From contig NZ_QRDW01000007.1 of the NCBI RefSeq assembly GCF_003385955.1, forward strand, positions 62,001-126,000: 64,000 nucleotides of DNA. Reading direction: 5' to 3'. Shown here one piece after another: positions 54,180 through 63,006 of the stretch (position 1 is its first letter; every line of letters begins with the position of its first letter). The translations under genes and the position numbers were made by a program. The stretch comes from Aestuariispira insulae (GTDB lineage: Bacteria > Pseudomonadota > Alphaproteobacteria > UBA8366 > Aestuariispiraceae). The notes beneath the pieces were generated by a model. That model worked only from the letters and a program-made list of their open reading frames with translations. It was not told the origin of the DNA and made no database searches.

Positions 54180-54647
54180 ATGAGCAATGAAACGATTTAT
54201 GATGGCCTGACCCAGTTGGGCGGCGACAGCAAACTGCCCGACCGGCCGGAAGACGCGGTGCTGGAAAAAGTGCCGAACCCGCAGGAAGGCACAGGATATC
54301 TGGTGCGTTTTACCGCGCCGGAATTCACATCGCTTTGCCCGATCACCGGCCAGCCGGATTTTGCCCATCTGATGATCGATTATGTGCCGGAAAAATGGCT
54401 GGTGGAAAGCAAGAGCCTGAAACTGTTCTTAGGTTCCTTCCGCAACCATGGCGCCTTCCACGAGGATTGCACGGTTTCCATCGGCAAGCGCCTGGTGGAG
54501 TTGCTGGAGCCGCGCTGGCTGCGGATCGGCGGCTATTGGTATCCGCGCGGCGGCATTCCGATCGATGTCTTCTACCAAACCGGCGAGCAGCCACGTGACG
54601 TCTGGATCCCGGACCAGGGCGTGCCGCCCTATCGCGGCCGGGGCTAA
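54180..54647 (+). CDS. queF: NADPH-dependent 7-cyano-7-deazaguanine reductase (short form)
   Basis: Reduces the nitrile of preQ0 to the amine preQ1. The 155 residues match the type I (GTP cyclohydrolase-like) form: catalytic C53 in [12 protein letters not shown] with D60, the NADPH-binding [19 protein letters not shown] (E76, H94, E95). The start is ATG 54180 with GAAGGAAA upstream. It is the last que gene. preQ1, its product, is the ligand of the upstream riboswitch, closing a feedback loop. Confidence 0.97.
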
Positions 54648-54664
54648 GCCATCGGAACAGGGAA

Positions 54665-54692
54665 AGGGCGGCGAAATCCGCCCTCTCTTTTT
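54665..54692 (+). terminator. Intrinsic terminator of the que operon
   Basis: AGGGCGG (54665-54671) and CCGCCCT (54678-54684) form a 7-bp stem with a 6-base loop, followed by CTCTTTTT. Confidence 0.85.
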
Positions 54693-54701
54693 CATTATTT
54701 T

Positions 54702-54716
54702 GTTCTTTATTTGTTC
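54702..54716 (+). promoter_or_regulatory. LexA (SOS) box upstream of the radical SAM gene
   Basis: GTTC (54702-54705), seven bases, GTTC (54713-54716): the direct-repeat LexA operator of alphaproteobacteria. It lies where the -35 element should be, upstream of TATAAT at 54729-54734, the right place for repression. Confidence 0.85.
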
Positions 54717-54728
54717 TGTTTTTGGGCA

Positions 54729-54734
54729 TATAAT
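54729..54734 (+). promoter_or_regulatory. Consensus -10 element placed for a leaderless transcript
   Basis: TATAAT is followed by six C residues and then the ATG at 54741. Transcription would start at or next to the A of the start codon, giving a leaderless mRNA. There is no Shine-Dalgarno sequence. Confidence 0.65.
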
Positions 54735-54740
54735 CCCCCC

Positions 54741-55853
54741 ATGGAACAGACAGAACATACCCACCCCGTTTTGCCCGACCGGCCCCGCAAAGGCCGGGGA
54801 TCGGTCAGCAACCGCACCGGCCGGTTCGAGCGTGAAACCCGCCAGGCGGTCGATGACGGCTGGGACTTGGACGAAGATGAGGCTTTGCCGCCGCTGCGCA
54901 CCCATTTGAGCGTGGATGCCAGCCGGACCATCATCACCAAGAATGAATCCCCCGACATCCCGTTTGACCGGTCGATCAACCCTTACAAGGGCTGCGAGCA
55001 TGGCTGCGTCTATTGCTTTGCCCGGCCGACCCATGCCTATCTGGGCCTGTCACCGGGGCTGGATTTTGAATCCAAGCTTTTCTTCAAGCCCAATGCGCCC
55101 GATCTGCTGCGCAAGGAACTCTCCAAGAAGGGGTATAAGGTCCGACCCATTGCCTTTGGCACCAATACCGACCCTTATCAGCCGGTGGAACGGGATAAAA
55201 AGATCACGAGGCAATTGCTGGAGATCCTGCGGGATTTCAACCACCCGTTCACCATTGTCACCAAATCGGCGCTGATCCTGCGCGATCTGGATATCCTGAG
55301 CGAGATGGCAGACAAAAACATGGTGTCGGTCCATCTGTCGGTCACGACCCTGGACCATAAGCTTGCCAACAAGCTGGAACCGCGCGCCAGCACGCCGCAA
55401 AAGCGGCTGGAGGCGATCCATCGTCTCGCAGAGGCTGGCGTGCCGGTGGGCTGTATGGCCGCCCCCATGGTTCCGGCGCTCAATGACATGGAAATGGAGA
55501 GGATTTTCACCGCTGCCAGAGACGCCGGGGCAACCCGCGCCAACTATATCCTGCTGCGCCTGCCGCTGGAAATCACAGAGCTGTTCGAGGAATGGCTGGC
55601 CACCCATGTGCCGGACCGGGCCGACCATGTGATGAGCCTGATCCGGCAATGCCGGGACGGCCAGACCTACCGGTCCGGCTGGGGCACCAGATTCCGCGGC
55701 ACCGGCCCCTATGCCACCCTGATGAGCCAGCGGTTCAAACTGGCCATGCGCAAGCTAGGCCTCACCCCGGAACGGCAGGAAAATTTGGATTGCAACCGTT
55801 TCCGGGTGCCGCCACAGGCTGGCGATCAGATACCACTATTTGACACAGAATAA
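54741..55853 (+). CDS. PA0069/SplB-like radical SAM protein
   Basis: A 370-residue radical SAM enzyme of the PA0069/Rv2578c family, distantly related to spore photoproduct lyase. The [4Fe-4S] cysteines are C85, C89 and C92 in YKGCEHGCVYCFARPTHAY. The N-terminal region (1-70) is basic and acidic in blocks (RKGRGSVSNRTGRFER). The C-terminus, DCNRFRVPPQAGDQI, is family-typical. The function is unknown, but the LexA box upstream suggests a role in the DNA-damage response. The frame from 54711 lies upstream of the probable transcription start and is rejected. Confidence 0.85.
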   Translation: MEQTEHTHPVLPDRPRKGRGSVSNRTGRFERETRQAVDDGWDLDEDEALPPLRTHLSVDASRTIITKNESPDIPFDRSINPYKGCEHGCVYCFARPTHAYLGLSPGLDFESKLFFKPNAPDLLRKELSKKGYKVRPIAFGTNTDPYQPVERDKKITRQLLEILRDFNHPFTIVTKSALILRDLDILSEMADKNMVSVHLSVTTLDHKLANKLEPRASTPQKRLEAIHRLAEAGVPVGCMAAPMVPALNDMEMERIFTAARDAGATRANYILLRLPLEITELFEEWLATHVPDRADHVMSLIRQCRDGQTYRSGWGTRFRGTGPYATLMSQRFKLAMRKLGLTPERQENLDCNRFRVPPQAGDQIPLFDTE

Positions 55854-58672: not shown

Positions 58673-59278
58673 ATGCCAGACTTCTCCCTGGAATCACAAT
58701 TTGACGGTCCCGTTGCCGGGATTGATGAGGTGGGACGCGGCCCTTGGGCCGGGCCGGTAGTGACCTGTGCCGCCATCCTGGATCCCGAGACCTTCCCCAT
58801 TGAGTTGGCCGCCCAATTGGATGATTCCAAGAAACTGACCGACAAAAAGCGCGAGGCGCTGTTCGAGCCGCTCTGCCAGCATAGCATCTATTGCCTGGGC
58901 GAGGCTTCGGTTACGGAGATTGATCAGGTCAATATTCTGGCCGCCACCATGCTTGCCATGCGCCGCGCGGTTGACGGGCTGCCCCAAAAACCGGCTGTGG
59001 CCCTGGTGGATGGCAACCGGGACCCGAAACTTGGCATCCCGACCCAGACCGTGGTCAAGGGGGATGGACGCTCCCTTTCCATCGCCGCAGCGTCTGTGAT
59101 CGCCAAAGTGGCCCGCGACAGGATGATGCGCACCCTGGCGGCGGAATTTCCGGGCTATGGCTGGGAACGGAATGCGGGATATGGCACCAAGGCCCATCAG
59201 GAAGGGCTGGCCCAATTGGGGGTCACCCCGCATCACCGGCGATCATTTGCCCCGATCGCGCACCTTTTGATGGATTAA
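58673..59278 (+). CDS. rnhB: Ribonuclease HII
   Basis: Removes ribonucleotides from RNA-DNA hybrids and duplexes. The 201 residues have the DEDD set: D18-E19 in GIDEVGRGPWAGPVV, Asp in ALVDGNRDPK, and the C-terminal KGDGRSLSIAAASVIAKVARDRMM. The 3' end overlaps the convergent AraC gene by 4 bases. It follows the antiporter gene by 17 bases. Confidence 0.96.
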   Translation: MPDFSLESQFDGPVAGIDEVGRGPWAGPVVTCAAILDPETFPIELAAQLDDSKKLTDKKREALFEPLCQHSIYCLGEASVTEIDQVNILAATMLAMRRAVDGLPQKPAVALVDGNRDPKLGIPTQTVVKGDGRSLSIAAASVIAKVARDRMMRTLAAEFPGYGWERNAGYGTKAHQEGLAQLGVTPHHRRSFAPIAHLLMD

Positions 59279-62056: not shown

Positions 62057-62071
62057 GTTCTTATTTTGTTC
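62057..62071 (+). promoter_or_regulatory. LexA (SOS) box upstream of the VOC-NUDIX operon
   Basis: GTTC (62057-62060), seven bases, GTTC (62068-62071), 46 bases before the VOC start codon. The pattern is the same as at 54702-54716, including TTTTGTTCT context. No equally clear -10 element is seen. Confidence 0.8.
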
Positions 62072-62548: not shown

Positions 62549-63006
62549 TCATGGCGGATGGTGAGCGTTTCAAACTGCCCGCTTCGGTTTTCGTGATGGC
62601 GCGCGAAGCGGGCCGGGTCCTATTGCTGCGCCGGAACAATACCGGCTGGATGGACGGCCATTTCAGCCTGCCGGCGGGGCGCATAAAAGGGGGTGAGACG
62701 CTGGTCAGCGCCGCCCGGCGGGAATTGGAAGAGGAAACCAGCCTGGTTGCCAAGGAATCGGCCTTGTTCCTGGCCCATGTGCTGCACAGCCGGAATGAAG
62801 ACGGACAGGAATGGACCGGCTATTTCTTCGAATGCTCACGCTTTGACGGCAGCCCCTATCTTAATGAACCGAATAAACATGACCGGCTGGGCTGGTATGA
62901 GGCGGACCAATATCCATCCCCCCTGGTGCCATATGTGGCTCAGGCCCTGTCCGCAATTCGATGCAGCCAGCCCTTTTCCGCCTATGGCTGGGCCGCAACC
63001 GGTTAA
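62545..63006 (+). CDS. NUDIX hydrolase
   Basis: A 153-residue pyrophosphohydrolase. The Nudix box is GRIKGGETLVSAARRELEEE followed by TS-L, matching GX5EX7REUXEEXGU, with the final Gly replaced by Thr. It may hydrolyse damaged or non-canonical nucleotides; the likely SOS control fits that, but the substrate is not known. The start overlaps the VOC stop codon (ATGA); ATG 62551 is an alternative. An 18-bp palindrome spans its stop codon. Confidence 0.9.
   Translation: MIMADGERFKLPASVFVMAREAGRVLLLRRNNTGWMDGHFSLPAGRIKGGETLVSAARRELEEETSLVAKESALFLAHVLHSRNEDGQEWTGYFFECSRFDGSPYLNEPNKHDRLGWYEADQYPSPLVPYVAQALSAIRCSQPFSAYGWAATG

Follow-up and report, generated by a model that had tools for sequence, protein, structure and literature searches.

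A predicted LexA-controlled, leaderless promoter of a PA0069-family radical SAM gene in Aestuariispira insulae and its conservation in Alphaproteobacteria

The window analysed here, i.e., the whole stretch of 64,000 nucleotides of Aestuariispira insulae DNA, carries a gene for a radical SAM protein downstream of ORFs whose translations read as queC, queD, queE and queF, which end at 54647. The features of the intervening region, the gene itself and a second gene discussed below are as follows (window coordinates).

54665-54692, + strand: hairpin resembling an intrinsic terminator, with a T tract, 3' of the que genes (7-bp stem, fold z -3.9)
54702-54716, + strand: putative LexA operator GTTCTTTATTTGTTC, read directly and kept in orthologues; its N7 spacer spans the -35 position
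54706-54711, + strand: probable -35 hexamer TTTATT, weak, 17 bp ahead of the -10 element
54729-54734, + strand: -10 element TATAAT, read directly, six bases ahead of the start codon
54741-54743, + strand: ATG start codon and, judging from the distances, the probable transcription start of a leaderless mRNA
54741-55853, + strand: gene for a PA0069-family radical SAM protein of 370 aa (family profile match) with the cluster C85-x3-C89-x2-C92
62117-62545: VOC/glyoxalase gene, followed by a NUDIX gene at 62551-63003

The hairpin occupies 54665-54684 and is followed by the tail (fold z -3.9); terminator-like hairpins also arise in shuffled sequence (mean 0.6). The initial annotation, made from the sequence alone, had described a GTTC-N7-GTTC box overlapping the -35 region and a TATAAT six bases from the ATG with no ribosome-binding site, and both descriptions hold on direct reading. 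The box GTTCTTTATTTGTTC lies with its spacer over the probable -35 hexamer, which at a 17-bp spacer reads TTTATT and is weak, and a strict sigma-70 scan returned no promoter in 54500-54900. The six bases that separate TATAAT from the ATG are CCCCCC (54735-54740), and no Shine-Dalgarno motif (AGGA, GGAG or GAGG) is present within 20 bases 5' of the ATG at 54741. The sole in-frame ATG, GTG or TTG upstream of this start is a TTG at 54711, within the LexA box itself. Further downstream, a gene for RNase HII (rnhB, read from its translation) is located at 58673-59278, 2.8 kb from the radical SAM gene and with other genes between them; rnhB follows the radical SAM gene on the same strand in 91 of 160 loci of the class Alphaproteobacteria, and in 22 of these it is at most 100 nt from the aligned ends.

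Taken alone, the box was rejected as evidence, as its count is at chance level both in the window (2 matches against 1.45 expected; 43 of 100 shuffles gave at least 2) and in the genome, where 41 + 55 (96) matches stand against 54 + 46 (100) for the backward control, i.e., there is no enrichment. The case is decided by the orthologues. The composite of box, TATAAT and ATG occurs once in the window and in none of 100 shuffles, a comparison made with a pattern that was defined post hoc, after the site had been seen. The second GTTC-N7-GTTC match of the window, GTTCTTATTTTGTTC at 62057-62071, lies 45 nt before the VOC/glyoxalase gene and has a G-rich leader; among the eight best-matching family relatives of this gene, an exact box close to the start is missing in seven and present in the opposite orientation in the eighth.

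A strict form of the composite, GTTCTTG-N4-GTTC-N(11-13)-TANNNT-N(5-7)-ATG, was found 47 times in 240 genomes of the class, compared to a single occurrence of its backward control; the Aestuariispira insulae site itself does not match this strict form. Of these 47 composites, 43 are at the PA0069-family gene. Thirty were assigned by reading the loci and 28 of them belong to the family: 27 precede a GCEHGC radical SAM protein and one (L370) the N-terminus of this protein at a contig end, while L390 reads as RuvC and the product of L374 was not recognised. The other 17 were placed by coordinates, 15 just upstream of a family match and 2 not. The ruvC-like gene of another class genome (L390) thus bears the same composite leaderless LexA promoter.

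A draw of 289 class genomes gave 143 with the gene above the family cut-off; the 110 best-scoring of these loci, the one in the window included, were read. This comparison of upstream regions, which the initial annotation had proposed as a check, speaks for its reading: the box is frequent, its distance to the ATG and that of TANNNT to the ATG are kept, and Shine-Dalgarno sites are depleted. GTTC-N7-GTTC was found in either orientation between -300 and +60 in 96 of the 110 orthologues (2/110 for the reversed-letter control), and 94 of the 96 boxed loci have it on the coding strand. An in-frame ATG follows the forward box (96 boxes) after 23, 24 or 25 nt in 10, 28 and 21 cases (59 together), and an out-of-frame ATG at these distances only once. 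For 92 loci a start was chosen with the -10 ignored, namely the one nearest to 24 nt from the box if any was present at 20-28 nt, else the first. TANNNT ends 6 nt before this start in 39 and 7 nt before it in 11 of the 92 loci (50/92 together). It is found 5-9 nt ahead of the start in 58/92, as opposed to 4, 9 and 7/92 in three windows shifted further upstream.

Where 24 nt separate box and ATG, the -35 position, at 17 bp from the -10 element, coincides with the first six bases of the operator spacer. TTG stands at this position in 25 of the 27 loci with 24-nt spacing, in 19 of them together with TANNNT; the Aestuariispira insulae site has TTT where most orthologues have TTG, which makes for a weaker -35. 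The exact box is missing from 14 of the 110 orthologues. One of these, L130, lacks upstream sequence altogether, and L370, a fragment from a different contig of that genome with the same starting residues, carries the composite promoter. In seven of the other 13 box-less loci a box with one mismatch precedes an ATG by 20-28 nt, which counts as weak support because the reversed control reaches 26/110 at this tolerance. In a set of named genomes, which may overlap the class sample, a forward box was found in 72 of 80; 55 have an in-frame ATG at most 60 nt from the box, and in 27 of the 55 TANNNT ends 6-7 nt before this ATG. Loci of Bradyrhizobium and Azospirillum are among those with the leaderless layout.

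Two other SOS genes of the same cells look different. We read recA (29 genes) and lexA (27 genes) as paired SOS controls from 30 of the class genomes, and found a box at 16/29 recA and 25/27 lexA genes, mostly as GAAC-N7-GAAC and 58-173 nt (recA) or 29-193 nt (lexA) before the start. A Shine-Dalgarno-like 4-mer precedes 24/29 recA and 17/27 lexA genes compared to 8/92 orthologues of the PA0069-family gene, and TANNNT 6-7 nt before the start was found at none of the recA and lexA genes; these two genes thus do not share the leaderless appearance. Furthermore, the operator spacer of the PA0069-family gene begins with TTG in 63 of 94 forward boxes (one per locus), versus 0/17 boxes of recA and 0/28 of lexA. 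The Aestuariispira insulae genome encodes both recA and lexA, each with a box upstream. The earlier proposal that the mRNA starts at the start codon is supported by this depletion of Shine-Dalgarno sites relative to recA and lexA and by the conserved distances.

Among relatives at the level of the order, 17 of the 18 loci above the cut-off were read, with the most downstream in-frame ATG nearby taken as the start. All 17 have the exact box 11-20 nt before the ATG (14 nt in 10/17), a TTG directly upstream of the box and no Shine-Dalgarno 4-mer, and in 15/17 TANNNT is located 4-7 nt before the ATG. In these relatives the operator appears to be placed just downstream of a TTG-type -35. As the operator shifts and the TANNNT spacing stays constant, the distance of the -10 element to the ATG is kept while the operator moves. 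The shift from ~24 to ~14 nt may be interpreted as one helical turn. The layout with the box between -35 and -10 is clear in these 17 relatives but not in the class sample, where only 1/7 loci with a box 10-16 nt from the start have TANNNT at 5-9 nt.

These data bear on an alternative that we regard as improbable, namely that the gene is LexA-controlled but leadered, being read from another promoter or from a start some bases upstream, with the TATAAT-ATG distance incidental in this genome. The negative strict promoter scan and the weak -35 are in line with it. Moreover, the box is 35-60 nt from the ATG in several loci of Rhizobium, Neorhizobium, Aurantimonas, Aureimonas and acetic-acid bacteria in the named-genome set, some of them with SD-like leaders, and some lineages of the class indeed appear to be leadered, judging from these layouts. 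What speaks for the leaderless start is the terminator-like hairpin upstream together with the lack of a Shine-Dalgarno site, the conserved spacing of 23-25 nt (box to ATG) and 6-7 nt (TANNNT to ATG), and the fact that the -10 spacing is kept in 15/17 order-level relatives despite a box located elsewhere.

In the same family as Aestuariispira insulae, 12 of the 13 loci above the cut-off were read (L405, L408, L412, L414, L415, L418-L422, L425, L426). Only 2/12 have an exact forward box at most 60 nt from the start; with both orientations allowed and a range of -150 to +45, the exact box is present in 4/12. The TANNNT spacing occurs in 7/12. The mostly degenerate or displaced box hints at decay or at an altered LexA motif in this family. 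Outside the class, 39 orthologues, presumably of beta- and gammaproteobacteria, were obtained from a draw of 299 phylum genomes, 111 of which are above the cut-off, and all 39 were read. An exact CTGT-N8-ACAG, the other LexA motif of proteobacteria, was found between -200 and +60 in 28 of the 39 (control, 0), with the next start codon 1-33 nt after it and with some SD-like leaders. PA0069-like proteins are therefore widespread, and LexA control, as the initial annotation had it, is predicted from the boxes within the class and beyond it. That orthologues of Alphaproteobacteria and of other classes carry different LexA motifs makes a role in the response to DNA damage likely. PA0069 and Rv2578c are reportedly members of published LexA regulons.

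The protein had been described as a PA0069/SplB relative, and this assignment is confirmed. It matches NCBIfam NF033668 (PA0069 family radical SAM protein, status 'hypoth_equivalog') with 526.7 bits at a cut-off of 360 over model positions 1-348 of 348, and the genome contains no second match. The named records closest to it are alphaproteobacterial. The AlphaFold model (21 sequences, pLDDT 75.9, pTM 0.78) had spore photoproduct lyase at Foldseek ranks 1-6, and VIA-align gave Z 16.3-16.8 for this enzyme, with the next family reaching 13.4; other radical SAM folds considered as the nearest one, among them lipoyl synthase and NifB, scored lower. The protein thus is, according to the model, a radical SAM enzyme closest to the fold of spore photoproduct lyase. 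One orthologue that looks alphaproteobacterial (L298, 60% identity to the window protein) stems from a record titled Mycobacterium sp. KBS0706, possibly a misnaming.

Is the protein then a true spore photoproduct lyase that repairs 5-thyminyl-5,6-dihydrothymine? Among solved structures, the lyase (PDB 4fhc and mutants) has the nearest fold (Z 16.7, rmsd 3.6, 267 residues aligned) and shares the CX3CX2C cluster, and an SOS-regulated homologue was named splB and predicted to be a photolyase (PMC3323433). Nevertheless, we consider this identity quite improbable. The sequence identity to 4fhc is 14%, the lyase model TIGR04070 gives 19.7 bits against a cut-off of 400 and therefore stays below the family threshold, and spore photoproduct lyase was absent from the results of PDB sequence searches, whether started from the protein or from alignment A1. 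In an alignment of 144 members from 149 loci (the rest having no usable start or running off the contig), the cysteines of the [4Fe-4S] cluster, C85, C89 and C92, are present in 144/144, and outside the cluster no cysteine reaches 97% conservation. This argues against a family-wide counterpart of Cys140 of the lyase, the H donor, the exact aligned column being uncertain: MAFFT put Cys140 of 4fhc at column 134 (C in 69/144, V in the window protein) with implausible gap placement in an unreliable region, and hhalign aligned just 13 columns. The position of Tyr98 of the lyase is F in 95 and Y in 49 members. Furthermore, spore photoproduct forms mainly in spores.

A box that arose by chance or has decayed, with the gene constitutive in Aestuariispira insulae, is very improbable. 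In its favour are the lack of enrichment in window and genome and the low count of exact forward boxes among same-family relatives (2/12 at most 60 nt from the start). Against it, the box is exact, AT-rich, located at the commonest position of the class and shared by 96/110 class orthologues and by all 17 order-level relatives read.

From the sequence elements and their conservation, the family membership and the predicted fold, we infer LexA binding, induction, the exact 5' end and a DNA substrate of the enzyme. SOS control and the leaderless start are both well supported by comparative sequence evidence, and the whole reading, an SOS promoter and a leaderless mRNA for a radical SAM enzyme acting on damaged DNA, appears probable to us. 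In the undamaged cell, LexA would bind to GTTC-N7-GTTC over the -35 region and block RNA polymerase. Upon DNA damage, RecA-stimulated cleavage of LexA would free the promoter, transcription would begin at the A of the ATG at 54741, and the leaderless mRNA would be translated by ribosomes. The enzyme most likely acts on a product of DNA damage, which it reverses or processes; spore photoproduct itself is probably not the substrate. The initial annotation had deduced DNA repair from SOS control; the SOS part is upheld by the orthologues, and the repair part we still infer.

A more far-reaching combination of these elements is possible but doubtful as a whole. According to it, much of the Alphaproteobacteria would possess a dedicated leaderless SOS gene whose -10 element keeps a distance of about six bases to the ATG, whose LexA operator varies between slots, whose leaderless translation is selected, and whose product repairs a lesion other than spore photoproduct independently of light. 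These slots, one covering the -35 and the other situated between it and the -10, may be interpreted as lying roughly one helical turn apart. As the -10 distance is kept while the slot varies, leaderless translation itself would be under selection in this combination, perhaps so that the enzyme can be made when normal initiation is impaired.

SOS control of splB was proposed for alpha- and betaproteobacteria in 2012 (BMC Genomics, PMC3323433), and the splB of this study is very probably the same gene as the PA0069-family gene. As in our data, a LexA site precedes an SplB-like gene, and its motif differs between alpha- and betaproteobacteria; unlike here, the product is called a photolyase, and the splB section of that study mentions neither promoter geometry nor a leaderless start. 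SplB (COG1533) is also part of the LexA network of Bacteroidetes (2021, PMC8565304), a radical SAM protein belongs to LexA regulons of Gram-positive bacteria and Balneolaeota (PMC7739468), and LexA ChIP and mitomycin C data are tabulated for the radical SAM protein vnz_31145 of Streptomyces venezuelae (PMC9380542). These systems share a radical SAM protein under LexA with the one described here but come from other phyla with other LexA motifs, and they are likened by description, not by NF033668 score. In addition, SplB-like proteins were linked to ImuB-C operons (PMC3765255), and an SplB gene of Pseudomonas was raised by a polyphenol (PMC5435343). Neither 'radical SAM' nor 'spore photoproduct' is present in a study of Caulobacter repair genes (PMC1839093), the main text of one on the Caulobacter SOS response (PMC12700426) contains neither 'radical SAM' nor 'leader', and PMC9578287 and PMC6473078 hold nothing for or against the SOS and leaderless reading.

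Leaderless mRNAs are common in Caulobacter, where 375 were reported (PMC4117421), and 171 are known from Sinorhizobium (PMC3616915); they start at the AUG, as proposed here, and the word LexA is absent from the main text of both surveys. In M. tuberculosis the SOS-repressor gene lexA is read from a leaderless mRNA (PMC2897130); gene and phylum both differ from those described here. In the literature searched, subscription journals and supplements apart, we found splB nowhere described with a leaderless LexA promoter. As SOS control of SplB-like genes is already in print, this part is not new; what appears to be new is that the leaderless promoter is conserved and its operator movable. This promoter offers a clean comparison for asking why the Shine-Dalgarno route taken by recA and lexA in the same cells is avoided.
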